Below are positions 1,036 to 40,323 of a stretch of DNA of 40,323 nt, piece by piece; position 1 is the first letter of the stretch; the number at the start of each line of letters is the position of its first letter. The notes beneath the pieces are model-generated. The model was not told the DNA's origin and did no database searches. It saw only the letters and a list, made by a program, of their open reading frames with translations. Both the position numbers and the translations under genes were made by a program. This DNA comes from Acidobacteriota bacterium (lineage in GTDB: Bacteria; Acidobacteriota; UBA6911; RPQK01; JAJDTT01), in the NCBI GenBank assembly GCA_028874215.1, contig JAPPLF010000031.1:34014-74336 (forward strand), in the 5' to 3' direction.

Positions 1036-1350
1036 TCAGGCAGAACCCGTCATTCGTACCTGAATACATCCCACCAGCTCAAAGATGATTTCGGAGGGGG
1101 TAACGTTTTGAATCCAACTCTTCATCCTAGATTCGAGTTCGTTGGCGGGTCGTTCCGTATACGTGAATACTAAGAGAGCTACCTTGGCAATGCCCTCGAC
1201 GACTCTCCACCAAGCTGCTCGGTGAGCATGACTTCTGTTTTGCCAGAACGGGCGGTGGCAACGGCCAAGAACTCGTCCTATTCTTGAGGAAACCCGATTT
1301 ATTTTGCGTACAGTCACGTCACCGAGTAGTTGTTCCTGGAGGCTGGCCAT
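1036..1350 (-). CDS. Hypothetical small protein between methyltransferase and vsr
   Basis: An open frame of 104 codons from ATG 1350 (112 from GTG 1374, which would overlap the methyltransferase stop). I do not recognise it. It has no clear nuclease motif, membrane segment or signal peptide. Its position directly after a C5 methyltransferase is where a cognate restriction enzyme or a controller gene often sits, so a decayed restriction gene is conceivable, but nothing in the residues supports that. Bases 831-1035 between it and vsr contain no supportable gene on either strand. It may be a chance frame. Confidence 0.3.
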   Translation of the reverse strand: MASLQEQLLGDVTVRKINRVSSRIGRVLGRCHRPFWQNRSHAHRAAWWRVVEGIAKVALLVFTYTERPANELESRMKSWIQNVTPSEIIFELVGCIQVRMTGSA

Positions 1351-1366
1351 AGAAAGTATATTAGAT

Positions 1367-2458
1367 CTATGCACCGGAGTGCGATGCGAGAATATCCACT
1401 ACCTGTTTCGCGTGCCAAAACGCAAAATTGGGAGGGAAAGCGTTCCCGATCATTTGCGCTGCCGGATACCGACCGCGGTAAAGAAGGAATTCGTAGCCAT
1501 GCGGAAATCCTTGCAGAAGCGCCGCTTCCCGCAGGGTGATGGCACGGTCTTGCTCTGGATGCAGATAGCGCCCTTTGGACGGGTTGATGCAGCCGCCTGT
1601 AATTGTCGGTGCTTGCGTCAACCAGGCCATTCGGCCATAGACATCTTTAAAACCGTCAAACTTCCGGTGACACGCCAATTGTAAATTGTTAGGGAGACTT
1701 GCCCGACTTCCGCCGTCCTTCGGGATCATTCTGATGAGATTCATCACCGAACTGCTACGAGAGACTTCGTAATTGTGGAGCGGATCAACGCTTTCCCTCG
1801 GAGCAGGCAGATGGCCAATAGCGTCCCAAACGGACGTTCGCCAAGGCACGCTTTCCGCAAATGGTATGGTCGCTCCCATTCCCCCAAGGAGAATCATGCG
1901 TTTTCTTCGCTGGGGGACGCCGTAGTCGGTGGCGTTGAACACCTCGTAGTCCACGAAATAACCGAGTTGATGAAGATCGTCGCGCAATTGCTCGATGCGG
2001 ACATCACTTGCCAACCCGGGCACGTTTTCGAGCATTATTGCTTTGGGCTCGAAGGTCCTCGCAAATCTAACTATTTCGAAGACCAAGTCGTTCATTGGTT
2101 CACTGATTTTACGGCCACCGTTCTTTGTTCTCATGGTCGAGAAGCCCTGACACGGCGGACACCCTGAAAGTAGGTCGAGTTCTGCTGGCTTCATCCCTAA
2201 TCTGTTCATTAAGAATTCTGGATCGACGGTCGAAATATCCTCCGTAACCATGCGTACTTGCGGATGATTACGACGAAACGTGTCCGACGAGAGCTCATCG
2301 GAATCTATGGCCGCAATGACGTGAAACCCGGCTCTCTTCAGGCCTAGTGTCAGACCACCACTGCCGCTGAACAAATCTATCGCCTTAAACCGCAAGTGAT
2401 CGACTCCCATGGAGCGATTTGGTTTGATTGTTTGGTAGCTGATTGGTCTCAAATCCAT
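1367..2458 (-). CDS. DNA (cytosine-5-)-methyltransferase
   Basis: The 363-residue protein transfers a methyl group from S-adenosylmethionine to C5 of cytosine. All hallmark C5-methyltransferase motifs appear in order: motif I DLFSGSGGL (about 28-36), motif IV GCPPCQGFS with the catalytic Cys (about 100), motif VI MLENVPG, motif VIII QRRKRMILLGG, motif IX LTQAPTITGG before the C-terminal region, and motif X GNAFPP. Length fits a solitary or type II enzyme with a short target-recognition region, so the target cannot be read by eye. An alternative start is ATG 2410, but the 2458 start has a weak AGGG upstream. It is followed on the same strand by vsr. No restriction endonuclease is recognisable beside it, so it may be an orphan enzyme or a self-marking partner of the HerA-NurA genes upstream (inference). 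Confidence 0.93.
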   Translation of the reverse strand: MDLRPISYQTIKPNRSMGVDHLRFKAIDLFSGSGGLTLGLKRAGFHVIAAIDSDELSSDTFRRNHPQVRMVTEDISTVDPEFLMNRLGMKPAELDLLSGCPPCQGFSTMRTKNGGRKISEPMNDLVFEIVRFARTFEPKAIMLENVPGLASDVRIEQLRDDLHQLGYFVDYEVFNATDYGVPQRRKRMILLGGMGATIPFAESVPWRTSVWDAIGHLPAPRESVDPLHNYEVSRSSSVMNLIRMIPKDGGSRASLPNNLQLACHRKFDGFKDVYGRMAWLTQAPTITGGCINPSKGRYLHPEQDRAITLREAALLQGFPHGYEFLLYRGRYPAAQMIGNAFPPNFAFWHAKQVVDILASHSGA

Positions 2459-2560
2459 CGAATTGATGTGCCCTGGCTACGCTGTTCCTATCGATTTGTG
2501 GTCCGAACTGGTTCGAGTTTCAGATCCTCGTCTTGTCCAGCACAAGCTCATTGGATCCCC

Positions 2561-2989
2561 TTAGTGGGAATTGTCTGGGACAGGGTGATGGCGAACTATC
2601 GACGAGGCCCATCTTGCGCGACCAGCCTCAAAATCATCAATGAAATTCTTTAGGGCGGTTTTCTCTCGACTTCCATCAATGCCCAGGACGATGTTGGAAA
2701 AAGAGGCAGCGCGGACCACTGTGGTTTTGGAGCGACGCAGAAATAGATCCCAGCACCACGGCCAAGTGCAGTCACAAGAATCCTGGCGAGTGCGGTTGGG
2801 CAGGATGTCGCTCGCCCACACGACAAATTGTACCTTCATGGCTGGGGTCAAAGAGTTCCCATGCCGACTTCCGACCGTATTTAGTTGTTCTGCCGCAGAT
2901 CAATCACGAGCTTCTTCAGGTGGGAGTTCGCCCTAATAGTCGGCAGGTAATCATCCGCCATCGCTACCAATGTCACCTCGTCGTCGCTG
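2561..2989 (-). other. Gap with short frames, possible decayed gene
   Basis: Between the HerA stop and the methyltransferase there is no intact recognisable gene. On the minus strand GTG 2976 opens a 31-residue frame ending at 2881 that reads like protein (it ends KKLVIDLRQNN). A second frame, from ATG 2851 to 2561 (96 codons), contains a plausible stretch FSNIVLGIDGSREK. The frames do not join without shifts. This could be one degraded small gene downstream of HerA, or chance. No family recognised. Confidence 0.25.
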
Positions 2990-4654
2990 TTAGACGTCCT
3001 CGATTCCGTCTAGTTCTTGCAGCAAATTGTCTGTACGGTCTGCCGCCTTTGCCTCCGGACTTTCTTGCCACTTCTTTGTTGCTTCCAAAAAGTTCTCATC
3101 GCCTATCGCTTGGGTCTGTAGTTCACGATCGAAGTCCACCTTTATGACGAGAGGGAACCTGACAGCCTGACCGCTGACTATTCCCTGACCAGGACCGAAT
3201 CCGGGCAGGAGTCGACTATCAGCCTTGCTGAGATTCTCCATAACCTTTTCGACAAAGCTCTGATCCCTAGGATTGACCAGTCGAAAGATCAGGAAGGTAT
3301 TGCACTGCGAAAGAGCTGTTTCGTCGAGTCTACTTGGCCGTTGACTGACGAGAAGAAGCCCGGTCCCAAACTTCCTCCCCTCGGTGATCACCTTCTTGAT
3401 TATTTCCACCGACGGCGTGCCCGCCTGACCCTCGCCCCGTGATGGAATGAAGTTGTGTGCTTCCTCTACTACAGCAAGAAATGGAGGAATCTGGTTCCTC
3501 ATAGAGGCACGGTGTTCGAACAACTCCTTCAAGATAACGGCAACAATCGTCGATTGTGTCAGATGATCGTAACCTCCAAGGTACACAATGCTCGCCTGCC
3601 CAGGTCTGACAAAGCCTTCGGGTCGTATCGACGGATCAGGCATTGCCTTGAACGGAAAGTCTTGAAGTGCGGCTTGGCGCCGTAGTCTCTCGTTTGACTT
3701 CTCCATGGCTTCAACGTAGCTCCGCACGAGGCGGAAACCTCGCTTTACCGCCCGGATCGTCGGTGCGGTTCTCCTATCGCCGCTAGAGGAATCTTCTAGT
3801 TTTTGCAGAAGCTTTTCGATAAACGGAACAACTCCGACTTCCTTGTTTCGGAGGTCAATTCGCTCCAATGCCTCTCGGTATTTCTCCTTCTGAGGGTCAG
3901 TAAATCCTTGAGTCATCTGAGCGATTAGGTATCCAACCAGATCCAGATTTTCTTCACGCACAGTGAGGCTTGGGTAAAACAAGTGAATCGAGTTCTTAGG
4001 GAAGCCTTCCCGCTGTTCCCATAAGCCGAGATAATCGCCATGCGGATCAAGAATCACAAGGGGATATTGAACCTCTAGCAACTCTTTAATTATGCGCCGT
4101 GCTGCTACAGTTTTTCCTCCACCCGTCATTGCGAGGATTGCCATGTGGCGAGCGACTATGACGTTCGTATTGATCCTAACTTCCACATCGGGACGTCCGA
4201 TAAGGGTTCCAAGGCGCAGCCGATGCACGGGTTTATCGCCAGTTAGAATGGTTTTCACCGACGCAGCGGGCGGACGCTTCACCTCAGCACCTGGACTGAC
4301 TGGATAGCTCAGGGGACGAAGTCGTCCGATGTCGTCCACCGGTGTCTGTCCAAGTACCAATACTTTGCCTTCGACTTGGTCTCTTGAAAGAGAAAGCACG
4401 GTATCAAGTAAATTGAGCCCCTCTTGCGCAAGCTCCTGCCCTGCTTCGACAGGAAGAAAAGGGTTGAAACGGCCCAGTTCCACGATGCGGCCCCAGACCA
4501 ACACTGGATCCTTGCCTTTACCATCCGCGCTCGGGATCTCCATTCTCACGGCCACTAAATCACCCAGTTTTGCCGTAAAGCTCTTGAGAAAAAAGCGAAA
4601 CTCTTGCGGCGACGTGTTGCCTACGACAGTTCCAATGTGAATTCCTAAGCTCAT
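2990..4654 (-). CDS. herA: HerA-type hexameric DNA translocase/ATPase
   Basis: A 554-residue FtsK/HerA-superfamily motor that is expected to form a hexameric ring pumping double-stranded DNA into a partner nuclease. Features in order: an N-terminal HAS-barrel-like beta region (about 1-150), Walker A AMTGGGKTVAARRI (about 170-185), Walker B FLAVVEEAHNFIP (about 400), then the HerA-typical VSQRPSRLDETALSQCNTF segment followed by FRLVNPRDQ, which carries sensor and arginine-finger residues. ATG 4654 is chosen over the TTG one codon earlier because a strong GGGAGG lies 5 bases upstream of it. It starts 9 bases after the NurA stop, so the two genes are co-transcribed and probably translationally coupled. 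In archaea HerA-NurA works in end resection; in bacteria HerA pairs commonly serve in phage defence. The island context favours defence. Confidence 0.9.
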   Translation of the reverse strand: MSLGIHIGTVVGNTSPQEFRFFLKSFTAKLGDLVAVRMEIPSADGKGKDPVLVWGRIVELGRFNPFLPVEAGQELAQEGLNLLDTVLSLSRDQVEGKVLVLGQTPVDDIGRLRPLSYPVSPGAEVKRPPAASVKTILTGDKPVHRLRLGTLIGRPDVEVRINTNVIVARHMAILAMTGGGKTVAARRIIKELLEVQYPLVILDPHGDYLGLWEQREGFPKNSIHLFYPSLTVREENLDLVGYLIAQMTQGFTDPQKEKYREALERIDLRNKEVGVVPFIEKLLQKLEDSSSGDRRTAPTIRAVKRGFRLVRSYVEAMEKSNERLRRQAALQDFPFKAMPDPSIRPEGFVRPGQASIVYLGGYDHLTQSTIVAVILKELFEHRASMRNQIPPFLAVVEEAHNFIPSRGEGQAGTPSVEIIKKVITEGRKFGTGLLLVSQRPSRLDETALSQCNTFLIFRLVNPRDQSFVEKVMENLSKADSRLLPGFGPGQGIVSGQAVRFPLVIKVDFDRELQTQAIGDENFLEATKKWQESPEAKAADRTDNLLQELDGIEDV

Positions 4655-4663
4655 CAATCCTCC

Positions 4664-6469
4664 CTAAAACTCAACTCCCGGTCGGAAAAAGAAGTCTCTT
4701 GGTGTCTTTGCGAGTAACTGTCTAACCTGCGCCACCACATGTGGATCACCCGTTCTGATTGCTCGACGAATCACCGAAGCTGACATTTCACCCGAGATAC
4801 CGCGTGAGATCCAATCCGGAACCTTCGCGTACTTATCGGCGATGTCTAATCCAACAGGAAACCCATACCGCGGCAAGAGACGGGCTGTGTGGTATATTAA
4901 CTTAATTAACAATTGAGCTTGGTTTACGGCTGCCAGATTCATCTCGATTCGAAATGGAAACATAGTGTCCGTCGTCTTTAGCATCGTGGCCGATGGCGAC
5001 GGGAGTTGCCGCACGACTGGTTTCCACCGATCCCTCGCCCGACGCTCAAGATTTTTTCTCACGGGTATCGGCGTTATGTATTCACCCGAACGGAGTATGC
5101 ACCCAAAGAGGAAATCATCTGATATGTCGTAGCGGTCAAGAATCTCGTCGATCCTTTTTCGATAGGTAGCGTTGATAACTCGATCCTTCTCCATGGTCGA
5201 CAGAACGGCCTTCGTCACTGAACGGCCAGCCACCCGCTCCACGACGCCGGCAATGGCCTTCGGATGACCGTGTATCAACTTCATCACGTGGGTATACACA
5301 GCCATAAAGTGCTTCCAAAAAGGTCCAGCTCCTTTGGGGTCGGTTGGGAGATCTTGCACCGTGCCGGTGACTGCGGCTTGCGTGATCCCAAATTGCTCTA
5401 GGAAGGCGGGATCGAGGGCCGGAATGAAGTTGGGTTCTCCCTCGTCATACATTGCGAATTGATTTACCAGCGGCCCGTGGATCAACAGAAATGCAGCGGC
5501 GTCGTTCTGATCCAAGGAATAAAGAGCTGTAAGCGGTTCAAGGGTGTAGCGAGCAGCTTCCAAGAGCCGTTTCCGATCAGTAAACTCTGTGATCGCGTGC
5601 TTCGGATCGGCAATGTCACCGACGACGTATGGTTGCATGAACCACTTTTCTCGCTCATCCACTCGAGTTTCGCCAGGAACTACCGTATATACTCCCACAC
5701 GAAGGGCCAGCGGCTCGAGACGTGCGATACTCGGAATCCGAGCCACACCGCCATCGAGGAATGCTACAGGCCTGCCTTGCATCTGCGCCCAAAGATCAAG
5801 ATGTGATGTTTGAAATCCGTGAAGGCGAACGGACTTGCCGTGGTTCTTTAATAGACCGCGAATTTGCTCCGCAATTTTCTTCAACTGAATCACGAAATCC
5901 ACACTATGGTCGCTTCGTATCGAGAGTACATGGGCGAAGAGAGGGGTCAGGATGTGTGGAGAGTCGAGAAAGCGAGAAACATGCACACTGAACAGTTCCG
6001 GATCATTATCGGTGAGATTACGATAGAATGCTGAGAGGATGGGAGTAGCTGTTATTGTAGTGACATCTCGAGGAGGAACATCGTACACATGCAGTCGTAG
6101 CGTGGGGTCGTCTTCCGCGATAAGCTCGATCCAAGTGGGGTCGAGTGGTTGCACCACACAGCGCGCGTTACCAGGGGTCCCCTCGAAGAAGGCTACCATG
6201 AATCTTTCTGGCATATATGTGGAAAGAAACATGCAGAGTTTTTTCGATCGAAGATAGTATAGTCCCTTGTATTCGACGATTCGACCATCTGCATCCGTTA
6301 TCAAATCCTGATCAGCATCCCTGAACCTAACCAGCACGGTGCAATCTTTGTTGAGATGTTCAACCGATTCCCCCAATGGGTAGTAGTTCCACTTTGTACG
6401 GGCCTTCTCGTTCGGCGGTTCTTCGAGAATCCAGCGCTTACGTGCTAGGACAAAGAAGCTCTTATCCAT
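4664..6469 (-). CDS. nurA: NurA-domain nuclease with long N-terminal extension
   Basis: The 601-residue protein carries a NurA domain in its C-terminal ~370 residues: RPVAFLDGG (Asp239) is the first metal-binding motif of the family, followed about 100 residues later by FLLIHGPLVNQF, which aligns with the family's (D)GxL motif, and a C-terminal part rich in conserved-looking helices ending FRPGVEF. NurA is a Mn-dependent 5'-3' exonuclease and endonuclease that acts inside the HerA ring. The ~230 residues before the domain have no family I recognise and are much longer than the archaeal N-terminus, so they may be a sensor or regulatory module. The expected Asp in the second motif is His here, so the metal site may differ. 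It precedes HerA by 9 bases and begins at ATG 6469 with no other minus-strand gene directly ahead, so it is probably the first gene of the operon. Confidence 0.82.
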   Translation of the reverse strand: MDKSFFVLARKRWILEEPPNEKARTKWNYYPLGESVEHLNKDCTVLVRFRDADQDLITDADGRIVEYKGLYYLRSKKLCMFLSTYMPERFMVAFFEGTPGNARCVVQPLDPTWIELIAEDDPTLRLHVYDVPPRDVTTITATPILSAFYRNLTDNDPELFSVHVSRFLDSPHILTPLFAHVLSIRSDHSVDFVIQLKKIAEQIRGLLKNHGKSVRLHGFQTSHLDLWAQMQGRPVAFLDGGVARIPSIARLEPLALRVGVYTVVPGETRVDEREKWFMQPYVVGDIADPKHAITEFTDRKRLLEAARYTLEPLTALYSLDQNDAAAFLLIHGPLVNQFAMYDEGEPNFIPALDPAFLEQFGITQAAVTGTVQDLPTDPKGAGPFWKHFMAVYTHVMKLIHGHPKAIAGVVERVAGRSVTKAVLSTMEKDRVINATYRKRIDEILDRYDISDDFLFGCILRSGEYITPIPVRKNLERRARDRWKPVVRQLPSPSATMLKTTDTMFPFRIEMNLAAVNQAQLLIKLIYHTARLLPRYGFPVGLDIADKYAKVPDWISRGISGEMSASVIRRAIRTGDPHVVAQVRQLLAKTPRDFFFRPGVEF

Positions 6470-6600
6470 ATTATGAATCTCTAACGCGGATAGATCACTA
6501 GACAGATAGAAAACGGTCGTGTTCTGTGATATAAGTTATTTAACCACAAAGACGAATTGAGCCCCAAGCAGATAATCATGTAACAACACAGTATACCAGA

Positions 6601-6801
6601 TCAAAGCTGATGTTTCAGCGTTTGGACGGACGGGACATCGTCGTCTGGTTCGATGGCCGCGAAATCACATCTGGCTGGGAGTGTCTTCCGGACCGAATTT
6701 GCGCAGCGGACCCGGAATCTGGGTTGTCTAAGCCTGTACTTCAGCCGAGAGCAGGTGAATTTCCCCTCCCCCTTGTCGCTTACATTGCGGGGCAATTTCA
6801 T
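6601..6801 (-). pseudogene. Remnant of HicA-like toxin partner
   Basis: An ATG at 6801 overlaps the stop of the antitoxin remnant by the sequence ATGA, the usual coupling in these pairs. The first residues, MKLPRNVS, match the start of HicA-like mRNA interferases, and a later RLKYRLRQ stretch resembles the family's RLGYxxTRQ segment. The conserved TGSH motif and the rest cannot be read without several frame changes, although a 66-codon frame stays open by chance. I read it as a degraded toxin gene, probably inactive. Confidence 0.5.
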
Positions 6802-7010
6802 GCCACGAGGATCTCGTCTCGCACGAAGCGAAGGCGAATCAGCTTCGGTCTCGGCATGGTGTCGTCAAAGTAGCAGTCTACCGCTTACTTGACGTTGCGG
6901 CGGACTTCTTTGAGCGAGTCGCCCTAGGTGTATATGCCGTAGCCCAATGGGCTGGCCGAATACCCGCCATCCACCTCATCCTCGGTGACTCCAAAAATGA
7001 TCTCGGTCAT
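6798..7010 (-). pseudogene. HicB-like antitoxin gene with two in-frame stops
   Basis: A 71-codon frame from ATG 7010 to TGA 6798 translates as a typical small HicB-like antitoxin: MTEIIFGVTEDEVDGGYSAS at the start and AVDCYFDDTMPRPKLIRL near the end. The frame is interrupted by TAG at 6924-6926, where relatives have Gln, and TAA at 6885-6887, where relatives have Glu. Frame and length are otherwise fully preserved, so the gene appears recently inactivated by point changes. It overlaps the HicA-like remnant by four bases. Stop readthrough or sequencing error are alternatives. Confidence 0.72.
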
Positions 7011-7211
7011 GATCTCGACACCGGTTGTTCGCTGGCACCCAGTATCTGCGCCAGCTACCCTTCTGTCTTTTTCTCCAACGCCAGAATATCGGCCCAAAAC
7101 TCTCCCAGGGACCGCATCGGCTCCGGCTTGTAGAAATAGCAATTGAAACTGATCTCGTAAGCGAAGCTGGAGAAAGAGCGTACCCGATTGGGTTACAAGG
7201 TGGAATAGGCG

Positions 7212-7476
7212 GAGGAAGACCTCAAGCCGATGGGGATTTGTCAAAATGCCATGGCCCGTGCCATCGGTGTCTCCCCGAGGGCGTTCAACGAAATCGTCCT
7301 TCGCCAGCGGTCAATCACTCCGCCCACGTCGATCATGTCGATTCGTTTTGGCGCCTTCTTCGGCCAGTCGGAGGATTTCTGGCATCGCATTCCAAGTCGA
7401 GTGCGACTTCCGCAGGCCGGTTGGGCACAGGAACAGACTGATAGCCGAGGATCAACCTGTTGCCGAGCGATGGTGA
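7212..7476 (+). pseudogene. HigA-family antitoxin remnant, frameshifted
   Basis: The plus-strand frame [20 protein letters not shown], followed by [16 protein letters not shown] and [12 protein letters not shown], is the helix-turn-helix core of HigA antitoxins (consensus FLKPMGISQNxLARAIxVxxxxINEI). After FW, near base 7381, the reading shifts by one base and continues as [12 protein letters not shown], which is the normal next part of HigA. The expected N-terminal HPGE segment is absent or unreadable, a few extra residues interrupt the SIRFG region, and no HigB toxin is recognisable upstream or downstream. This is a decayed antitoxin lying in the same gap as the HicAB-like remnant but on the opposite strand. 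Confidence 0.65.
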
Positions 7477-7661
7477 CCGTCCACTCTTCCCGCGAATTCC
7501 GCGTGGCTGCTTGCTGGGGTTGGGTCAAACAGTAAGTGCCTCCCGAAAATCCTAGATGTCGAACAGCGCAGGAGAAGGAGACTGCCCGTTTCTCAACCCA
7601 TAATCCCTCTTATAGAAATGAACCCCTCCCCGGGTGACGGTAACCACAAGTCACAGCCGAT

Positions 7662-8399
7662 CTAGTAGTCACGCCAGTATACTTGGGTCGCAAGATACTC
7701 TCGCAAAACAGCCCTTACGAAAAGCCCGTCTTCTTCCTCCATACGATACCGGTAGACTCCATCTTGGACGACAATCCACCCGCTACGCATGTCTTGGCCT
7801 GTTACCACTCTCGTCATCATCCGACTTCCTACTTCCGGCCATGGAGCGATACCCCCAATCGGGATTTCGAACTCTTCATGCTCGGCTTTCGTCATCGCCT
7901 CAATAGGCATCGCCCAAATGTGTTCTGGTTCCGTCAACACCGGCTGTCCGTATTCGTAGTACGCGTGGCCACGAGCGTTCTTAAGGACAACTCGATGGAC
8001 TGCGCGGAATTCGGGGGTCCAAATTAACCGGGTGCTCCCACCTACACTTACATTCTGTTTGCTGCGTTCGATTTGCTGTCTCATTCCAACGTGACGCTTC
8101 AGCGCACGACGGACATTCGGTTCCATATGATCTTCTGAATCTGTCGAACCCGCCAGTACGCAGTGTAGAAACAGAAACAGATATTCTTCATCATTCGAAA
8201 ACTGTTGGTTGCAATCAAGACAGGTTGGAATGACAGGTAGATTCGTTGGATACTCATTATTCGACGGACCTTCAGTTTTCCTCAATAGACACTTGGATGG
8301 GACATGATCAGAACTACGATTCTCTTTCCATATCCCTCCGCCACACTGCGCACACATGCCCTTGAGCCGTTCGTCACTGTAGTCGTTGATATAGTCCAT
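7662..8399 (-). CDS. HNH-type nuclease
   Basis: The 245-residue protein starts with a Cys-pair MCAQCGGG (about 15-22), then SSDHVPSKCLL (His of the DHxP motif, about 31-40) and IPTCLDCNQQFSNDEEY (second Cys pair and the Asn, about 56-72). This CxxC...DHxP...CxxCN order is an HNH/beta-beta-alpha-metal endonuclease fold with a structural zinc. The remaining ~170 residues form an unrecognised C-terminal domain. It begins 22 bases after the stop of the coiled-coil gene, so the two form a pair. As part of the low-G+C island next to NurA-HerA it is most likely a defence effector, but its target (phage DNA, tRNA or other) cannot be read from the sequence. Confidence 0.75.
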   Translation of the reverse strand: MDYINDYSDERLKGMCAQCGGGIWKENRSSDHVPSKCLLRKTEGPSNNEYPTNLPVIPTCLDCNQQFSNDEEYLFLFLHCVLAGSTDSEDHMEPNVRRALKRHVGMRQQIERSKQNVSVGGSTRLIWTPEFRAVHRVVLKNARGHAYYEYGQPVLTEPEHIWAMPIEAMTKAEHEEFEIPIGGIAPWPEVGSRMMTRVVTGQDMRSGWIVVQDGVYRYRMEEEDGLFVRAVLREYLATQVYWRDY

Positions 8400-8421
8400 T
8401 CTCCGTCTCCAATATCCTAAC

Positions 8422-9069
8422 TCAGTCGAGGGTCGTCTTCAGCCGCTGCACAAATTCTCCTGCCGAAGATTCGTTCATCATAAACATAATCTCTTGAGGC
8501 GGACCAGCGTGAGGCCACGGTAGAGGTGGATGAAACCAGAACCGCAGTTTCAAATATCCCCTTTCCTGGGGTATCCGAGAAACCTCCGCCCGTTGTATCG
8601 CACCTTGGTACTTGGCGCCTTCGTCTACAGTAATTCCCGTTTTGCCGAGTGAGTATCCTTTCACTTTGATTGACGGGTCATCAAGCCATCCGGGAAGTCC
8701 GTAATACGTATCCTTACGAATGATTCTTGGGTTCGTTTCCCTCTTGGCTTCTCCAGAAAGAATGGCTCGGATGCTTTCTATCGGAGACTTGGCGGAGGTT
8801 TCATACCCCATTTCGATCAGGGAGTCCGTTACTTGACGGGCATTGAGATATTTTTTTTCCCGTTTCAGAATCTGGACCGTTCCCGTCACCACAGTTATTT
8901 TCGGTGCCGGTTCGTTTCCTTGGGTAGCGTATGGTGCAAGGGATTTGAAAAAGTAGTTTAGGTGTTCCAGTTCATCATCCAGCGCAATGATCTTGTTTTT
9001 AAGGGACACCTGTTCCTTCTTGATTTCTGACTTTCGTTCCTGGGCCCGCTGCAGCACGTTTCCAGACAT
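8422..9069 (-). CDS. Coiled-coil protein with winged-helix (HARE-like) domain
   Basis: ATG 9069 is chosen because AGGGGGA lies 6-7 bases upstream; the frame stays open to 9192 but the extra residues look non-coding. The 215-residue product has a charged N-terminal coiled coil (about 8-40, RAQERKSEIKKEQVSLKNK), a predicted winged-helix segment (about 65-125: LNARQVTDSLIEMGYETSAK, later IRAILSGE and a YYGLPGW end) resembling HARE-HTH domains, and a beta-rich C-terminus. HARE-HTH domains occur in transcription and restriction proteins and may sense modified DNA. It is the first gene of a two-gene unit with the HNH nuclease and may be its DNA-recognition or regulatory partner. The domain call is tentative. 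Confidence 0.55.
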   Translation of the reverse strand: MSGNVLQRAQERKSEIKKEQVSLKNKIIALDDELEHLNYFFKSLAPYATQGNEPAPKITVVTGTVQILKREKKYLNARQVTDSLIEMGYETSAKSPIESIRAILSGEAKRETNPRIIRKDTYYGLPGWLDDPSIKVKGYSLGKTGITVDEGAKYQGAIQRAEVSRIPQERGYLKLRFWFHPPLPWPHAGPPQEIMFMMNESSAGEFVQRLKTTLD

Positions 9070-9197
9070 AGATTCCCCCTGTTGAAGTAAGCACAGCGAA
9101 TATCGTAGGCTAGGAGCGGTTCCCCGTACGATTGGGGACCACTCCCATTTTGGGCAGGAGTGCCACCCACAACGTGACGTTACTCCTGACACCTCAA

Positions 9198-9226
9198 GGC
9201 TGGAGAGGTCCTGACCCTCTCCAGCC
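9198..9226. repeat. Perfect 11-bp inverted repeat
   Basis: GGCTGGAGAGG and CCTCTCCAGCC are separated by the 7-base loop TCCTGAC. No T run follows on either strand, so it is not a standard intrinsic terminator. It sits 129 bases upstream of the coiled-coil gene start, at the boundary where base composition changes. It could be an operator, a processed RNA hairpin or an element end. The rest of 9070-9435 holds no gene I can support. Confidence 0.55.
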
Positions 9227-9435
9227 CCCTACAATCGGACATTACAGCAGGTTTGTTTGGCCCACGTCAAGACAGTCGGGGCATTTTATTGGGCGGGGTG
9301 CGAACATACTTTGGGTTGACCCCAATAACAGTGTTGGGTCAGCGCTTGAAAGGTAGCGGATAGATTCGGTGAGAGGACGGTCGGGGGCCTCCAACCTAAC
9401 AGCCCGTGGGAAAAGGCCCGATTGACGAGAAGTGC

Positions 9436-11103
9436 CTACTTCCCAGGATAGGTGATCTCCAAAAAGATCTGGTGGACCACAACCGAATCCTGGTCGCGCT
9501 GGATGACATTCTTGACGCGGCCGAAGGCCTGCTTCAAGAACTCGGCAGGGTCGGCATTGGGCGGACCGATCAGACCTGCGAACGGGCCGGCGGCGGGGAT
9601 GTTCGTGATTAGTCCCACCTCGTTCATCCCGTTCCGCGCCACACCCGCGGGAACCTGGAAGTGGAACCAATCCCCTTCCCTTTCAGCCTCGGGCAGCAGC
9701 GTGTGATTGAGACGCGCCCAGAGGATGGTCCCCTTCCCGGCCTTGGCCGTGAAGACACTCAGCCGCAGGCTGGCCTTCTCGTCTTCCGCAGCGGGTCCCA
9801 GATGGATCCGTAGCTTCCGCTCCACCCGGTCCAACACGATGGGCAGCAGCGCCGGCTCGGAGCCGTGATAGAAAGGGCCGCCGCTGTGCGCCGTCGGGTT
9901 GATGGCGTAGACCTTGTCCTTGCCGGCCATGGTCTCGGGCGCTCCCAACTCGCTCAACACCCCTGTGAACTCCTCCATGGTCAGCCGCTGCGTCGGCTCG
10001 TGCCGGAAGTTAAACAGGTAGATCCCGTCGGCGCCCTGGTCCAGGTAGTAGTCGGCGTACGCCCGCATCCCCTGGCGGAACGAGGGCTTTTCCCCCAACG
10101 TCTCCCAAGCCCCCGCCCGCATGGTATTCGGATTGATGGACGGATAGACCTGCACCCCCGTCTCCCCGGCCAGTTGCACCCATTGCCCGATGGCCAACTG
10201 GTCCGGCATGTATCCCAGACCCACCAGCAGCACGTCCACCAGCCCCTCCCGGGCCCAGGCCTCCACGTCCAGACCGATCTCCAGGTTGGTCTCCAGGGAA
10301 TCCATCACGTGGACCGCCAGGGTGTAGGGCCGCCCCCGCTCCTCTCCGATGGCGTTCAGCCGCTCCCGGATCTTCCGCATGAGGTCCGTCATCAGGTCGG
10401 CCTTCTGCCGTCCCTGTCCCATGGGGAAGTGGATCCCCATGCGGTTGAAGTCCAGCTCGTAGCCGTCGAAATCATGTCTGGCGGCGGTCCTGGCGATGTA
10501 GTCGAGACGATGCTGCCGGACCTCCGGGTGGGTGTAGTCGAACGACACCCAGAGGCGCTGCTCCGTCAGCTCGGAAGGGAGCTGGCGGTCCGTCATCGGC
10601 GCCATCAGCAACTCGGGGTGCTGCGCCTTGTAGACGTCGTCCAATTCCTCCAGGGTCCGGGACCGGAAGGCCGCGTGAAGATCGCTCATGCGCAACGACC
10701 CCCAGACCTCCAACCCCTGTTCATGGCAGGCCCGGATCACGATGTCGTTCACCTGCTCGTAGGAATCGAAACAGTCCCAGAGCAGATCCGTGGGAATGTT
10801 CCACGGCGGCTCGGCCCCGTTTCCGATGTGCCACAGGTAGGTGTCCACCTGGGTTCCCTTCACCATGCGCACGCTGGCGTCCAGGAAATCATCGTGGGTC
10901 TTGATGTCGTAGATGAGGCTCATGTACGGCTCCACCTTCCCCCGGTCCAGGTAGCTGTGCGACTGGATGGCGGCGGAGTCGTAGTAGAGGATCCTCCGCT
11001 CCTTCTTCGGACCGCCTTTCGAGGCGGCGTTCGGGGCCTCGGAAGGGCTGCCGCAGGAGACGGCACCCAACAGGAGCGCCAGCAGGAAACCGTGTCTCTT
11101 CAT
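9436..11103 (-). CDS. Secreted TIM-barrel lipoprotein, glycoside-hydrolase-like
   Basis: ATG 11103 gives MKRHGFLLALLLGAVSCGSP, a lipoprotein signal peptide with the lipobox GAVSC (Cys about 17), so the 555-residue product is membrane-anchored outside the cytoplasm. The middle resembles GHL10-type (glycosyl-hydrolase-like) TIM barrels: LWHIGNGAEPPWN, LEVWGSLRMSDLH, LWVSFDYTHPEVRQHRLDYI and DFDGYELDFNRMG, in which the acidic residues at strand ends are candidate catalytic groups. A C-terminal beta-rich region (about 390-555) may be a carbohydrate-binding module. The gene follows the propeller protein gene on the same strand with a 19-base gap, so they are probably co-transcribed. Substrate is unknown. 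A similar but shorter protein is encoded at 19123-20379. Confidence 0.7.
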   Translation of the reverse strand: MKRHGFLLALLLGAVSCGSPSEAPNAASKGGPKKERRILYYDSAAIQSHSYLDRGKVEPYMSLIYDIKTHDDFLDASVRMVKGTQVDTYLWHIGNGAEPPWNIPTDLLWDCFDSYEQVNDIVIRACHEQGLEVWGSLRMSDLHAAFRSRTLEELDDVYKAQHPELLMAPMTDRQLPSELTEQRLWVSFDYTHPEVRQHRLDYIARTAARHDFDGYELDFNRMGIHFPMGQGRQKADLMTDLMRKIRERLNAIGEERGRPYTLAVHVMDSLETNLEIGLDVEAWAREGLVDVLLVGLGYMPDQLAIGQWVQLAGETGVQVYPSINPNTMRAGAWETLGEKPSFRQGMRAYADYYLDQGADGIYLFNFRHEPTQRLTMEEFTGVLSELGAPETMAGKDKVYAINPTAHSGGPFYHGSEPALLPIVLDRVERKLRIHLGPAAEDEKASLRLSVFTAKAGKGTILWARLNHTLLPEAEREGDWFHFQVPAGVARNGMNEVGLITNIPAAGPFAGLIGPPNADPAEFLKQAFGRVKNVIQRDQDSVVVHQIFLEITYPGK

Positions 11104-31382: not shown

Positions 31383-31507
31383 GGGCGAATTCCAATCGCC
31401 CGGCCTTCGTCGCCAAGTTCGTTAGTTAAGAGTTCGGCGGTTGGAAACCGCCGTTCCAGTTCGGCGATTGGAAATCGCCGTTCCAGTTCGGCGGTTGGAA
31501 ACCGCCG
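31383..31507. repeat. 27-bp tandem array of palindromic hairpins
   Basis: Three units step exactly every 27 bases: CGGCGGTT-GGA-AACCGCCG at 31435-31453, CGGCGATT-GGA-AATCGCCG at 31462-31480 and CGGCGGTT-GGA-AACCGCCG at 31489-31507, separated by TTCCAGTT. A looser related hairpin, GGGCGA...TCGCCC, lies at 31383-31401. The middle unit differs at one stem pair with both arms changed, so pairing is conserved. The array sits between converging genes, so it could be a bidirectional 3' element. Confidence 0.87.
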
Positions 31508-31534
31508 CTCCCGTCCGGGCCGGTGGGGGAGTTC

Positions 31535-34210: not shown

Positions 34211-34810
34211 TCAGTCGTGCTTGTGACTATGGTCGTGGCGGACTTGGTGAAACACGACGTGCAGAAGCGATCCGCCGACGAACGCCTGATAGAGTTCCAC
34301 GCCACCGCTGCCGTCCCCGAAGACCCGGGCGCCGACAGCGTAACCGGCGACCGTGGCAACCAGGATCACTCCGATGCCGAGCAAAGCTCCCCCGAAGCCA
34401 TGCCGGGGGCGCAGCAGCCACCAGATCATCAGGCCAACCATAATCCGGTGCAGGATCACCGCCGGTGCGATTTGTACTCCTGTGGACACCAGCGCCGCCC
34501 CCTCCAGAAACACATGCAGCGCCAAGCCGGACAAACCGGCCAGGAGGGCCAGATTGTCGGTATGGGGCGCGAGCCTGTGTGAGACGAATTCAATTATGGC
34601 GGGTGTTCCGGCGCCCAGAGCGAAGACCACAATCGCCAGTACGCCGTAGCCGGCCCAGGCAGACGGAATCACCTGCCAGACAACGAGTGCCGGCACGGCG
34701 ACGTACATGAAGACGTCAACAAAACGTGCAGCACCAGGCCGGTCGTGCAGCCACCTGTAAAGGAACGCACCCACGACCGGCGCGGCGAGCGATCCGGCGA
34801 GTTGGAGCAT
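34211..34810 (-). CDS. ZIP-family metal transporter (ZupT-like, short)
   Basis: The 199-residue membrane protein has about seven hydrophobic segments. SGLALHVFLEGAALVS and IAPAVILHRIMVGLMIWWLL resemble the paired metal-site helices of ZIP transporters (HNxPEG and HExP in canonical members), though the residues are altered. The C-terminus VFHQVRHDHSHKHD is a His-rich tail. ZIP proteins import Zn or Fe into the cytoplasm. It is the last gene of the SPFH operon, 47 bases after the preceding stop. It is shorter than typical ZupT (about 250), and some helices may be missing at the N-terminus. Confidence 0.7.
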   Translation of the reverse strand: MLQLAGSLAAPVVGAFLYRWLHDRPGAARFVDVFMYVAVPALVVWQVIPSAWAGYGVLAIVVFALGAGTPAIIEFVSHRLAPHTDNLALLAGLSGLALHVFLEGAALVSTGVQIAPAVILHRIMVGLMIWWLLRPRHGFGGALLGIGVILVATVAGYAVGARVFGDGSGGVELYQAFVGGSLLHVVFHQVRHDHSHKHD

Positions 34811-34857
34811 GGCGATGGTCCGTACCCAATGCCTTGACTGCTCAATTCAAGGATGCG

Positions 34858-35379
34858 TCAGAAGTACAGGGTCAACAGGATGATGCTGCTCAGTCCACCG
34901 AGCATGAAGCTCATGGCGCTGACGGTGCCGCACACGGTGGCGAAATCCGCCAGGCGAAAGATCTGGCCTGCAACCACGAACAGCACCCGCGAGCGATCCA
35001 AATCGCCGTCGACGAACTCCTTCAATCCGGTTTCCGCCCCGTGCGCCTCCTTCACCGAGACCAGAGTCACCAGGACCATTGTCAGGGCCGATGCGAGAAT
35101 TCCAACCCCGAAGACGAGCAGGGTCAGCAAGGTGAACCAGTGGTAGGTCGTACTCTCGCCCCCCGCAGGTTCCCTCATGAATCCGACGATCAACGCTGCG
35201 CCGCCGGCATTGCCGTACAGCAACATGCGCGTCGACTCGTTGATCAAGCGGAACATGGTGTTGCGCCGCATGGCGACAACCTTGTAGAGTTCGCGCAGCC
35301 ATTCCTCGCCGACCTCTTCGGTGGAAAAGTCATCTACTTTTTTCAAGCGACCCTTCTCCTTTCGTGGCTTAGTTGCCAC
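34858..35379 (-). CDS. Unknown four-helix membrane protein
   Basis: The 173-residue protein has a basic N-terminus (MATKPRKEKGRLKKVDDF), an amphipathic region (about 25-45), then hydrophobic segments near 50-70, 82-108, 130-150 and 152-173. I do not recognise the family. Its start overlaps the stop of the binding-protein gene by 11 bases, so it belongs to the same operon and probably to the same membrane assembly. It may be an anchoring or ion-channel-like subunit; nothing in the sequence decides this. Confidence 0.7.
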   Translation of the reverse strand: MATKPRKEKGRLKKVDDFSTEEVGEEWLRELYKVVAMRRNTMFRLINESTRMLLYGNAGGAALIVGFMREPAGGESTTYHWFTLLTLLVFGVGILASALTMVLVTLVSVKEAHGAETGLKEFVDGDLDRSRVLFVVAGQIFRLADFATVCGTVSAMSFMLGGLSSIILLTLYF

Positions 35380-36532
35380 CGAATGCGGTCAACCTGATGA
35401 AATTCGATCCGGCATTCGTCCCAGGCTCGAATTCAACCTTCCAGTCATCAATGTCCACGGGGCCGGACCGCAATGCCTGCTCAAGAAAGTGCTCGCGCGT
35501 CAATTCCTCACCCATGCGCTCCAGCACGGCGATGACAAAGCGGCCAAGCATATAGCCCTCCAAAGACACCTCATTGGCCGCCGGTCGAACGGATTTCCCC
35601 GCTCGTTGGCTCTCCGATCGAAGGGCGCGTCGAAAATTTCGAACGATTCGACTGTTCGCGTCTGTCGGGTCCGGCACGACTTCGGTCACCACGACTTCGC
35701 TACTCGGCATCTCAATTCTCTGCTTCAATTCATAGGACAGAACAAAGGACAGATTGGCCATGATGTAGTCATGTCCCAAGCTGTTCGCCATGTTGATGAT
35801 ATCCGCATTGGTGGTATAGGTCCCGACGAGCAGAACGAAATCGAGATCGGCCTTCGCCAAGGTAAAGAGGCTTGCATGGACGGCATGCGTGTTGCGTGAG
35901 AAGGCCGCTTTCGCCAAGAGGGGAAGACCGTGCTCCTTGAGCGCCACCTTGTAGCCCCTCAACCCCGAACGGCCGAAGGCGTCGTCCTGATAGATAATGC
36001 CGAACCGGCTCTTGCCTTGTTTGCGAACGGCGTAGTCCACCAACATGAGGATTTCTTCCTCGTAGCTCGCCCGCAGATTGACGATATTCGGAAAGTGCTC
36101 GGCGTCGCGCAGAAATCCCGCGCCCGTAACGTGGCCCACAAAGGGAATCCCGGCCGCTCTCAGCACTGGAGCGATGCGCTTCGCCGTCGGCGTTCCCACG
36201 CCGCCGACGATGGCCAACACATCGTCCTCGGCGACGAATCTCTCCGCGTTCGCCGCCGCCTGGTCCGGTTCATAGCCGTCGTCGTGGGTGATCAACTGCA
36301 ACGACCTGCCGTTGACTCCCCCCCGAGCGTTCCATTCCCCGAACGCCGCGAGGATGCCCGACCGGTAGTAGTTCCCCAGATCCCTGTTCGGCCCCGTCAA
36401 ACAGGCGCTCTGCCCGAAGATGACCTTATCCGCGTACACGCCGGTCGCCGCCATCGACGGACACGGGACCAGCAGCAACGCCATTACCAGGAACAGCGCT
36501 GATCGAAGCATCCCGGGATGCAAGTCAGTCAT
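35369..36532 (-). CDS. Branched-chain amino-acid-type substrate-binding protein (orphan)
   Basis: ATG 36532 is set by one base of spacing after the previous stop. The 387-residue product has a Sec signal (MLRSALFLVMALLLVPCPSM, then AATG) and the periplasmic type-1 binding fold (Peripla_BP_6): SACLTGPNRDLGNYYRSGIL, AFGEWNARGGVNGRSLQLIT, EDDVLAIVGGVGTPTAKRI and YQDDAFGRSGLRGYKVALKE are all typical of LivJ-like proteins. No ABC permease or ATPase gene is in the operon, so it is unlikely to serve a classical importer. It may be a sensor domain that delivers ligand information to the SPFH proteins, or a partner of the fused permease (inference). Confidence 0.88.
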   Translation of the reverse strand: MTDLHPGMLRSALFLVMALLLVPCPSMAATGVYADKVIFGQSACLTGPNRDLGNYYRSGILAAFGEWNARGGVNGRSLQLITHDDGYEPDQAAANAERFVAEDDVLAIVGGVGTPTAKRIAPVLRAAGIPFVGHVTGAGFLRDAEHFPNIVNLRASYEEEILMLVDYAVRKQGKSRFGIIYQDDAFGRSGLRGYKVALKEHGLPLLAKAAFSRNTHAVHASLFTLAKADLDFVLLVGTYTTNADIINMANSLGHDYIMANLSFVLSYELKQRIEMPSSEVVVTEVVPDPTDANSRIVRNFRRALRSESQRAGKSVRPAANEVSLEGYMLGRFVIAVLERMGEELTREHFLEQALRSGPVDIDDWKVEFEPGTNAGSNFIRLTAFGGN

Positions 36533-36533
36533 C

Positions 36534-37829
36534 CTATTTTTCCCTTGCAGGTTTGTTGTCCTCTGCGCCCTCATCAGCGATCACATCCACCATCGGCTTC
36601 TGGTCGACCGGCTGCCCGACGCCTCCGGAGTGACTCTTGAGGTGACGATGGGAGAATATTGAGGGCGAATCGAATATGAGCGACCGGGGATTGACCCCCG
36701 TTGCGTGGTCACGCTCCGTGTGCTCCTTATGGAACTGCCCATCCAGCACGGGCCTGTCCTTCCCGACGGTTTCCAGAGTGTGCACGTTGGGTAGCGCGGT
36801 CGAACTCGGCAACCGCCCCTCAGCAGCGGCAACCCTCGAAGGCGGCGCTTCCAACGCAATCTGTGCCGGGGTGAATCCGGCTGCGCCGTCAATCATGTTG
36901 ATGTCGATAGTCGAAGCCCCACCCGGGTTTACCATCGACAGGCTTGCCTCGGTAAAGACCTCGCGCATGCGCTGCCAATAACGCGTGATGGCGACCTGTG
37001 TCGGATCCTTCCGATATTCATCCAGCAACGCCCTGAAGACCCCGGCGCTGCTTCGCGCCTGAACAACTCGTTCCCGGGCGCTCGCCTTTGCATTCAATAT
37101 CAACGCGTCGGCCTGCCCCTTGCTGCGGGCAACCAACCGTTCCCTCTTGCGATTTGCTGCGCTTACGGCTTGCTCGCGTTCCGCGATTGCGTCGTTGACG
37201 TCCCGGAATGCAGCCAGAGTCTCCGGGATCGGACGCACGCTGACGAGCTTGAGCGCGACGAGATCGATCCCGACAGCCAGAGTTTCGAGGCGTCCGATCA
37301 CCACGTCCAGCAGATGCTGTTGAATGAGATCGCGATTCGAAGTCATAATCAGGTCAACAAAGTGCTGCCCCAGAATATTGATCAACTCTTCCCGTACCAG
37401 CACCGTGAGCAACGCGCGGGGGTCGGAAGCCGCGAACAGGTACTGCTTCAGATTACGGATCTTGTACTGAATGGCCACGTCCACTTCGAGCAGGTTCGTG
37501 TCTCCGGACAGGACCGTGAAGTTGATCGTATCGCCGTTCCTGCTCGCTATCCGGTATCCGACGATTCTCTTGACCTTGCGGATATGCATCCGTTCGATGA
37601 GTGGGATGCGGTAGCCGATGCCCGGACCGACCGCCGCATCGACCACTCGCCCGAAGCGGGTACGGACGCCCTCCTCCTCCTTCTTGATGATGTAGATGCC
37701 ACTGGCCAGAATGCCGAGCGCGACAGCGGAGGCAAGGCCCGCAAGAAATTTCTTGCGGTGGAGGCCGCAAAAGTCAAATACGGCGTATATGACCCGCGTG
37801 CTCGGCGGAATTGATTGCTGCTCGTTCAT
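36534..37829 (-). CDS. SPFH/prohibitin-family membrane protein (HflK-like) with extended tail
   Basis: The 431-residue protein has one N-terminal membrane helix (about 28-46), followed by an SPFH domain beginning with EEEGVRTRFGRVVDAAVGPGIGY and running to about 230, then a coiled-coil region (NRKRERLVARSKGQADALIL). The last ~120 residues (from about 310) have no family I recognise and end with a charged tail. SPFH proteins form ring-shaped cages that set up membrane microdomains and usually regulate a membrane protease or transporter. It is translationally coupled to the next gene (1-base gap). No ftsH is nearby. Confidence 0.85.
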   Translation of the reverse strand: MNEQQSIPPSTRVIYAVFDFCGLHRKKFLAGLASAVALGILASGIYIIKKEEEGVRTRFGRVVDAAVGPGIGYRIPLIERMHIRKVKRIVGYRIASRNGDTINFTVLSGDTNLLEVDVAIQYKIRNLKQYLFAASDPRALLTVLVREELINILGQHFVDLIMTSNRDLIQQHLLDVVIGRLETLAVGIDLVALKLVSVRPIPETLAAFRDVNDAIAEREQAVSAANRKRERLVARSKGQADALILNAKASARERVVQARSSAGVFRALLDEYRKDPTQVAITRYWQRMREVFTEASLSMVNPGGASTIDINMIDGAAGFTPAQIALEAPPSRVAAAEGRLPSSTALPNVHTLETVGKDRPVLDGQFHKEHTERDHATGVNPRSLIFDSPSIFSHRHLKSHSGGVGQPVDQKPMVDVIADEGAEDNKPAREK

Positions 37830-37843
37830 TGGCCGAACCCGAT

Positions 37844-38737
37844 CTATCTCGGTACCTGCCTGCTGTCGAGATACTTGAACAACTCATTGTCCGCCGGCAG
37901 CATGAGCGTCGTGTTTCTGTCGATAATCAGATCGTAGCTGTCGAGGGCGCGGATGAACTTGTAGAACTCCGGATCGCGCCGGTAGGCCCTGCCGAGCAAC
38001 GCCATCGCCTCAGCTTCCGCGTCCCCAAGTATGGTGGTCGCCTGCGCGTGGGCGTCGGCCATGATCTTCTCGTGCTCGTTGATGGCGCGCGCCTCGACAC
38101 GGATCGCTATCTCCTCCCCTTCGCTGCGATACCGGGCGGCGATGCGGGCGCGCTCCGAGATCATTCGCTGGATCACGCTCGGCCGGTTCTCCATCGGCAA
38201 TGTGTATTCGACGATTCCGGCTCCGGTCACCTCGATACCGTAATTTTCCTTGGCGATGGGCGCGATGAGAGCCAGAATATCCTTGGACGCTCTGGTCAGA
38301 TCTTCGTGTTCCAGCCCCAGACTGATAAAGGCGTCTCGGGCCTCGTTGCTGATAACGATGCCGCTGCTCGATTGGAAGAGATTCGTCAGCCGCTCGGTAG
38401 CGCTCTCACCGGTTCGGATCGCTTCGACGAAGAGAATGGGATCCTGCACGCGCCAGAGCAGATACCCGTTCATCAGAACGCTCTTCTGGTCTTCCGTAAT
38501 CAGTTCCTGGGAGAGGTCGGTGAGAGCCTGAATCCGACGATCCACCTTGTAGATCTTGGATATGGGCCGGGGCCACTTCAGGTGGAGGCCGGGTTGCCTG
38601 ACGGGGGGAGATATCTTGCCGAAGTGGGTCAATACCCCGAGTTGCGTTTCGTCGATGATGTAAAGGCTATCGTAAGCGATTACGCCAAAAGCAATCACGG
38701 CAATGGTTGCGGGGATTCTCTTTATCTTCAAAGTCAT
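37844..38737 (-). CDS. SPFH/prohibitin-family protein, HflC-like
   Basis: ATG 38737 overlaps the previous stop (TGATG), so it is the chosen start; the frame is open upstream but lies inside the previous gene. The 297-residue product has an N-terminal TM helix (KRIPATIAVIAFGVIAYDSL), then IIDETQLGVLTHFGKISPPV and PGLHLKWPRPISKIYKVDRR, the SPFH signature of HflC. A coiled-coil region with EARAINEHEKIMADAHAQAT is followed by YKFIRALDSYDLIIDRNTTL and PADNELFKYLDS, which are conserved endings of HflC. It would pair with the SPFH partner downstream or with the fused permease-SPFH upstream. Confidence 0.9.
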   Translation of the reverse strand: MTLKIKRIPATIAVIAFGVIAYDSLYIIDETQLGVLTHFGKISPPVRQPGLHLKWPRPISKIYKVDRRIQALTDLSQELITEDQKSVLMNGYLLWRVQDPILFVEAIRTGESATERLTNLFQSSSGIVISNEARDAFISLGLEHEDLTRASKDILALIAPIAKENYGIEVTGAGIVEYTLPMENRPSVIQRMISERARIAARYRSEGEEIAIRVEARAINEHEKIMADAHAQATTILGDAEAEAMALLGRAYRRDPEFYKFIRALDSYDLIIDRNTTLMLPADNELFKYLDSRQVPR

Positions 38738-40323
38738 CACTTCTTGCTCCCCGGTTGATTGGCTGCCGAATCCTTGGGCGCGTCGACCGGTATCTTCGAT
38801 TGCTCCCGGCCGGCGCCCTCGGCGCGAGATCCCTTGCTGCCGGCCGGATCGTGCATCCTTACGGGCCTGTGATGACCGGCTTTGGCGCCCGCCTCCGCCG
38901 ATCTCCTCTTCCACAGCGCAACCTTTTCCAGACTGCGCCTGTTGGGCACGATGATCTTCGGTTTATCGGACAGTGCAGTTTCCAGCTTCTCCCGCCACAG
39001 CATGTTCCGAAGCACATTCGGCGCGCTTCGCATGGCGGCGGCCACCCGCTGGATCGCAGCGGACTCCGCCCCTGCCGTCGCCACTCTTCGGTGCGCCTCT
39101 CCATCGGCCTGCTCCACCTCGTAATCGGCATTGCCGTGCGCCCGGGGAATCAGCGATACCAGAAGCCGCTGCGCATTGGTGACAATCCGGGATTTATCCT
39201 CCTGCGCGCTCGATACTTCCCGGAAGGCGCTCATGGCCTCGGGCACGGGGCCGATGACCGACAGGTTCACCTTGATCGGCTCGACGCTCTCGAACACCAT
39301 GGCTTGCTCGCGCGGAAAGTGCGTATGCTTGTTTTCGAACAAGTCGTTGACGCTCCCTTCCAAGGCTTCCCGATGAACGTTGAGGAGCTGGTCCATGCTT
39401 CTGGCGGATACGAAGGAACGCACCTGGTCCCTGACGGCGTCCTCGATGAAGCTCTGCGGGTCGGCTATCCGGTAATGGTAGAGATAGGGGTCCTTCACCC
39501 GGTATTGCACATTGACGACGAGGGAAATCAGGTTCAGGTCACCGGACACATACTCGTGGGCGTCGCCGGCCATGATGGACTTCACTTCCCGGACCGGCCA
39601 TTTGTCGACCCGGACAAAGGGCCATGGGGCAAGATAGTGCAGACCCGGCGGCAGGTCCCTCCAGTAGACCTTGCCGTGCAGGCGGCCGTAGCCGACCGAG
39701 CCGGGAGGCACGATGGTAAAACCGCTGCCGAACAACAGTGCCAGGACCACTCCGCCGAGTATTTTGCCCGCCGGTGTGGAGGGAGAGATGGCGCCGCGGA
39801 ACGATCGGCCACGCGTCAGGTGCGCCCAAAACCGTCTCCAGCCCCTGGCCAGAGGCCGTAGGTTGATCAGCAGATCCTCCCAGCCACTGCTCAGGGCGCC
39901 GGCGCGGAACCGCCAGACGATCAGGGCGATGAGGCCCAAGGCGCCCGCCCATTGCAGCGCCAGAATCGCCGGCGAGTCAGAGGCCCCGAGGTACACGGGG
40001 ATCGCCAGGCCGGTGGCGAGAAGGAGGGTGTCGATCAGGATGGCAATGACGACGGTCACCGCAATGACCACGGACACGTAGATGGACGCGAAGCGCGCCC
40101 CGAACTGGCTCGTGATGATCGCGATGGTGCCCGTATTGGTCGCCGGACCCGTCATGAGAAAAATCAGCGCCGCTCCCGGACTGAAACCCTTGGCGACCAG
40201 CGCGGCGGCGATCGGCGTGCTCGCGGAAGCGCAAATGTAGAGGGGAACGCCGATCAGAACCATGACCGGGTAGGACATCCAGCGGGCATACTCGTTCGAC
40301 ATCAGATCGCTCGGAATCACCAG
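38737..40323 (-). CDS. SO_0444-type permease fused to SPFH domain (partial)
   Basis: The gene runs off the window's right edge; 529 codons are present, and the visible part begins in the middle of the permease. The first ~110 residues hold the C-terminal half of a DUF318/SO_0444-type permease: GVPLYICASASTPIAAALVA, FSPGAALIFLMTGPATNTGT and two further helices (to about 105). A helix near 118-136 and one near 186-203 lead into an HflK-like SPFH domain (IVPPGSVGYGRLHGKVYWRD, LPPGLHYLAPWPFVRVDKWP, then DLNLISLVVNVQYRVKDPYL). The C-terminal ~80 residues are basic and low-complexity. SO_0444-type permeases export Cu/Zn-like metals. The fusion is continuous in one frame and is the strongest novelty here: an SPFH ring protein tethered to a metal permease. 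Confidence 0.88.
   Translation of the reverse strand: MVIPSDLMSNEYARWMSYPVMVLIGVPLYICASASTPIAAALVAKGFSPGAALIFLMTGPATNTGTIAIITSQFGARFASIYVSVVIAVTVVIAILIDTLLLATGLAIPVYLGASDSPAILALQWAGALGLIALIVWRFRAGALSSGWEDLLINLRPLARGWRRFWAHLTRGRSFRGAISPSTPAGKILGGVVLALLFGSGFTIVPPGSVGYGRLHGKVYWRDLPPGLHYLAPWPFVRVDKWPVREVKSIMAGDAHEYVSGDLNLISLVVNVQYRVKDPYLYHYRIADPQSFIEDAVRDQVRSFVSARSMDQLLNVHREALEGSVNDLFENKHTHFPREQAMVFESVEPIKVNLSVIGPVPEAMSAFREVSSAQEDKSRIVTNAQRLLVSLIPRAHGNADYEVEQADGEAHRRVATAGAESAAIQRVAAAMRSAPNVLRNMLWREKLETALSDKPKIIVPNRRSLEKVALWKRRSAEAGAKAGHHRPVRMHDPAGSKGSRAEGAGREQSKIPVDAPKDSAANQPGSKK

Follow-up and report, generated by a model that had tools for sequence, protein, structure and literature searches.

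The operon described here has two close relations among known systems. Permeases of the SO_0444 family (NF033936; ArsP_1/DUF318) are annotated as Cu/Zn efflux transporters: SO_0444 is needed for growth of Shewanella with Zn or Cu (PMC3219624), and in Nitratiruptor both Cd and Cu induce a relative (PMC10092412). HflK and HflC are SPFH proteins encoded in tandem, with FtsH as their known partner; SPFH proteins occur throughout life. We analysed a 40,323-nucleotide stretch from an Acidobacteriota bacterium (GCA_028874215.1, contig JAPPLF010000031.1; G000:C31:34014-74336), referred to below as the window, whose end coincides with the contig end. At window positions 34211-40323, six open reading frames (ORFs), A to F, lie head to tail on the minus strand, and in the first of them an SO_0444-type permease continues directly into an HflK-like SPFH domain. 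The parts are known and the combination is a variant; together they suggest an undescribed organisation of metal transport. We found no paper in which DUF318 and SPFH occur together, and searches of titles and abstracts returned neither an HflK-P-type ATPase fusion nor an SPFH protein linked to metal efflux; the words ATPase, permease and metal are all absent from a 2009 SPFH survey. The six genes, in operon order, are as follows.

38737..40323, minus strand: gene A, 3′ part, comprising the C-terminal half of an SO_0444-type Cu/Zn efflux permease and an HflK-like SPFH domain (Pfam ArsP_1 and Band_7)
37844..38737, minus strand: gene B, HflC-like SPFH protein of 297 amino acids (aa) (Pfam Band_7; TIGR01932 hflC)
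36534..37829, minus strand: gene C, another HflK-like SPFH protein, extended at its C-terminus by a conserved His-containing stretch (Pfam Band_7; TIGR01933)
35369..36574, minus strand: gene D, LivJ-like binding protein, exported to the periplasm and lacking an ABC partner (Peripla_BP_6)
34858..35379, minus strand: gene E, helical membrane protein of no recognised family, which serves as a marker of the operon (no Pfam or NCBIfam match)
34211..34810, minus strand: gene F, membrane protein with a His-rich tail, in the position that a ZIP gene occupies in relatives (no Pfam or NCBIfam match)

The tight packing of these genes, noticed in a first-pass annotation made from the letters alone, is borne out by the ORFs. 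A and B overlap by 1 base, B and C are separated by 14 bases and E and F by 47. Using the longest starts, C and D overlap by about 41 bases and D and E by about 11, the start positions of D and E being uncertain; in most relatives the start of E is MKKxDEF, some 11 codons downstream of that of the window ORF. Gene A is 5′-truncated because the window stops at the contig end, beyond which its 5′ part lies.

Scanning 84,980 species genomes with exact peptide patterns, which miss distant members, yielded 71 loci, all titled as metagenome-assembled genomes (MAGs). The permease-HflK fusion is unbroken in 68 of the 71 relatives, with lengths of 756-937 aa, and is thus genuine rather than two separate genes joined by a sequencing error; the first-pass annotation had seen the two parts as continuous. 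The three exceptions are L021, cut at the contig start, L068, which is split, and L052, which is short. Genes A-B-C-D-E are intact, in the same order and on the same strand, at 66 of the 71 loci, drawn from about nine phyla by record titles, and so travel together. Contig ends interrupt four of the others (L007, L008, L019 and L059), and L065 lacks D and E.

Window A, lacking its 5′ part, could not be scored whole against NF033936, and full-length relatives were used in its place. The protein encoded at L004:7167-9584, 80% identical to window A, scored 316 bits over residues 17-414, against a cut-off of 300, and that of L009 scored 313 bits; in both, the curated cut-off is exceeded across the whole permease. 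In an alignment of 21 rows, the permease core and a CSCSVVP motif are near-invariant, the permease is the best-conserved region of A, and the loop between the permease halves is His-rich. The likeness to the SO_0444 family therefore covers both the permease score and the conserved cysteine motif region; in contrast to the characterised member, which is stand-alone, A continues into an SPFH domain and belongs to a five-gene set. Both A and C match E. coli HflK structures. A 50-residue linker ahead of the last hydrophobic helix of A, the SPFH membrane helix, contains 11 Lys/Arg and 3 Asp/Glu residues, and by the positive-inside rule this would put the linker in the cytoplasm and, as in HflK, predicts a periplasmic SPFH domain.

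B scored 157.3 bits against TIGR01932 (hflC), above the cut-off of 134.4, and matched the E. coli HflC structure 7vhp chain G with an E-value of 1.4e-32, so that its assignment as HflC-like holds; its C-terminus is strongly conserved. C is a further SPFH protein, as had been noted, and beyond its SPFH part carries a conserved extension, FH....ER.H..A..RSLIFD..SIF.H.H, within which RSLIFD..SIF.H.H is conserved in 64 rows. Tandem HflK-like and HflC-like genes with a predicted N-in/C-out layout recall HflK-HflC; here, however, the HflK partner bears an exporter rather than a short N-terminus, and there is an extra HflK-like protein.

The remaining two genes of the conserved set have less obvious roles. 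D matches Peripla_BP_6 (E-value 9.3e-51), its closest solved structure is 4kv7 (LivJ-type chains), and an N-terminal hydrophobic segment spans residues 18-36. It was correctly described as LivJ-like and lacking an ABC partner: the window operon includes no gene for a cognate ABC permease or ATPase, and where ABC genes recur beside the operon in relatives, they are of ZnuBC type. One His is strongly conserved in D and no Cys is conserved, so that D is not an obvious metal binder, which weakens the earlier suggestion that it senses ligand outside the cell. E has no Pfam or NCBIfam family, and 36 columns are invariant across 28 aligned sequences. It is indeed a membrane protein, with three clear hydrophobic segments; its AlphaFold2 (AF2) model is helical and of moderate confidence (predicted local distance difference test, pLDDT, 75), with three long helices rather than clearly the four first proposed, and matched nothing in the PDB at E<0.001.

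Neighbouring genes, counted in flanks of up to 8 kb around the loci, connect the operon with zinc. A zinc importer gene adjoins it at 61 of 71 loci: a ZIP gene at 34, within about 400 bases after E, and znuA and/or znuB at 27. No locus has both (0/71; Fisher test 1e-11, a value that is too optimistic because the loci share ancestry and are not independent), and ZIP and Znu importers clearly substitute for each other beside the operon. RND efflux genes lie near 30 of the 71 loci. Phosphate transporters of Na/Pi or PHO4 type lie near 26; these include 22 of the 27 loci with Znu genes and no locus with a ZIP gene.

Gene F, called ZIP-like by the first-pass annotation, is found only in the window and its nearest relative L004 among the 71 loci checked, and has no Pfam or NCBIfam match. 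The ZIP assignment is not supported, and we do not class F as ZIP: against a profile built from the 34 neighbouring ZIPs, F scored no higher than its shuffled sequence, and the hhalign probability was 1-3% over about 20 residues. In 34 relatives the slot of F holds a true ZIP gene.

The operon is shared between distant lineages. Gene E was detected in one of 396 sampled genomes of the window's own phylum, the positive being the query genome, with three genomes of the same genus negative; in the class of G007, the single positive among 274 sampled genomes was again the query genome itself. B proteins are 73-81% identical across phyla where RpoB is about 50% identical; in the same genomes, canonical HflC, used as a rate control, is only 29-46% identical. 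B identity exceeds RpoB identity in 52 of 55 genome pairs. Because B is far more alike between phyla than RpoB or canonical HflC, horizontal transfer of the five-gene set between phyla is strongly indicated. A concatenated tree of sequences from these nine phyla (FastTree, local supports only) conflicts with the phyla: the window's genome (G000) and L004 cluster with Binatota, Nitrospinota and a record titled Deltaproteobacteria, and Bryobacterales are placed near Alphaproteobacteria. By RpoB, G000 is 68% identical to L004 and 62-64% identical to Bryobacterales and groups with them, which makes Acidobacteriota its probable phylum. Seven loci (L004, L005, L017, L029, L041, L045 and L062), from different phyla, are on records titled as chromosomes, and mis-binning therefore does not explain the spread.

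Many of the genomes come from sponges. The jk18x bins, with 12 loci, derive from Caribbean Ircinia sponges, and the bin named jk18x7bins.13 there is our L066 (PMC9531527); 277c and 287ce, with 4 loci, are Petrosia ficiformis specimens (PMC8941161). Documented sponge MAGs supply at least 16 of the 71 loci. The names of the other 55 (p16x, RHO, APA, CO36..., OX63..., MP..., SB0662, Plut and others) look to us like those of sponge MAGs. We would only conjecture that the operon is restricted to sponges, since the scan patterns were exact and distant members were missed.

Two further gene sets follow a related plan. At L076 (G008; 3942-10750), about 1.5 kb from the end of the main A-E operon of the same genome, a divergent permease-HflK fusion, A′ (698 aa; NF033936, 357 bits; about 31% identical to A), is followed by an HflC (B′), an HflK-like protein (C′) and znuA. 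The order of fusion, HflC and HflK-like gene matches that of the window operon; the set differs in lacking D and E and in running directly into znuA, whose product contains a His/Glu-rich repeat, and into a znuB-like gene 0.8 kb beyond. Permease-HflK fusions were also present in G772 and G757 among 198 sampled genomes of G008's phylum, and G757 keeps the three-gene order.

The second set, found in the window's own genome on another contig (G000:C77; L075:2486-7447), begins with a fusion of a P1B heavy-metal ATPase and HflK that measures 1028 aa when counted from the listed start. Both parts score above their own cut-offs, the CPC, DKTG and TGE motifs are present, and an HflC-like gene, an HflK-like gene and a small 157 aa ORF follow. 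This operon thus shares the plan of exporter-HflK fusion, HflC and another HflK-like gene, but its transporter belongs to an unrelated class, D and E are absent, and it is more frequent: of 396 genomes sampled from the phylum, 19 gave a match running along the fused protein, in open frames of 930-1135 aa, and 1 had the window operon. The fusion also occurs in L077, L078 and L136. In L077 (5871-6875) and L078 (5755-6735, minus strand), the adjacent HflC-like protein starts with a long His-rich stretch (MHDHSHSHDHHSHSHGHEHH...), which suggests metal binding. In a plasmid collection, the P1B-HflK fusion had no match at 1e-100, and for A the matches listed were of HflK type only, none covering 80% of the protein.

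From the family score, the His-rich loop and the adjacent zinc importers, we infer that A exports Zn/Cu, in keeping with the metal efflux theme of the first-pass annotation. We judge it slightly more probable than not that this exporter sits in the HflK position of an SPFH cage. A, B and C would together build a cage or ring in the periplasm resembling that of HflKC, each A subunit contributing one exporter. The His-rich cytoplasmic loop of A may collect metal, which would be released at or inside the ring; D in the periplasm and E in the membrane would be dedicated accessory parts. The adjacent importer (ZIP or ZnuABC) and the RND efflux genes would round off a local metal-handling neighbourhood. 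The L076 permease set and the P1B-HflK set, which share the plan, support the idea of a caged exporter. An SPFH scaffold around the exporter, as first proposed, is still the natural reading, though the physical ring is putative. Overall the genomic case is firmer than it was in the first-pass annotation, and now includes the spread over many phyla, real ZIP or ZnuABC genes in relatives and a second, P1B ATPase-HflK version in the same genome; the claims about F and about sensing are weaker.

Several observations count against a caged Zn/Cu exporter. The SPFH part of A scored 126 bits against TIGR01933 (hflK) over residues 495-741 of the L004 protein, and C scored 140 bits, slightly under the same cut-off of 159.4; because both fall below it, we treat these proteins as HflK-like and class neither as HflK. 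The AF2 model of full-length A was poor (pLDDT 57) and unusable. The resemblance of D to amino-acid-type binding proteins finds no explanation in zinc export. Upstream of A, no regulator was found, and a Zur-type box was seen in 2 of 69 cases against 0.5 expected by shuffling, which is unconvincing.

A looser arrangement, in which the SPFH parts merely cluster exporter and importer in a membrane microdomain without a closed cage, would fit a general role proposed in papers on bacterial SPFH proteins. We consider it unlikely, however, as three HflK/C-type proteins are kept as a strict set and the B C-terminus is strongly conserved, both as a defined hetero-oligomer requires. Alternatively, since B and C resemble the proteins whose known partner is FtsH, and importers adjoin the operon, A-B-C might recruit or cage FtsH and so direct degradation of metal importers or exporters according to supply, with the permease as sensor or address label. 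This appears rather unlikely: ftsH is absent from the recurrent neighbours of the 71 loci, a separate canonical hflK-hflC pair lies elsewhere in the same genome, and the permease is the most conserved part of A, which fits transport as its main job. A different cargo is conceivable too, because ArsP_1 is a broad permease family and D resembles an amino-acid-type binding protein; export of an arsenical, a thiol compound or another metal is nevertheless distinctly improbable given the SO_0444 score above cut-off, the His-rich loop and the zinc importers, and no ars genes were recognised among the identified recurrent neighbours. Finally, a single MAG-like contig that cuts gene A might raise the suspicion that an error in sequencing or assembly created the fusion, or that chance produced the gene order. 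This is refuted by the conservation of the unbroken fusion, including the seven loci on chromosome-titled records of different phyla.

If exporter cages of this kind are confirmed, they would form a new class. We tentatively propose, while rating it as somewhat short of probable, that caged exporters are a general and undescribed class in which an HflK subunit carries a metal exporter, which would let a ring of pumps discharge into a chamber in the periplasm; that the class evolved at least twice, with an SO_0444 permease and with a P1B ATPase; and that the version with an SO_0444 permease, D and E moved horizontally among phyla of host-associated bacteria, mainly those living in sponges. Covalent fusion to exporters of two unrelated classes would name a cargo for the cage besides FtsH, making the question of what such cages hold a testable one. 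Transfer of five genes over about nine phyla, with many sponge symbionts among them, would point to metal handling as a common need in that habitat.

Elsewhere in the window, ARAGORN calls an odd tRNA with a four-base anticodon at 31420-31516, inside a short repeated stretch; the call is probably false. Positions 1-10000 have a G+C content of about 52%, against 60-67% across most of the remaining window, and may be a foreign island; an ORF for a HerA-type (DUF87) helicase lies within this stretch at 2990-4657.
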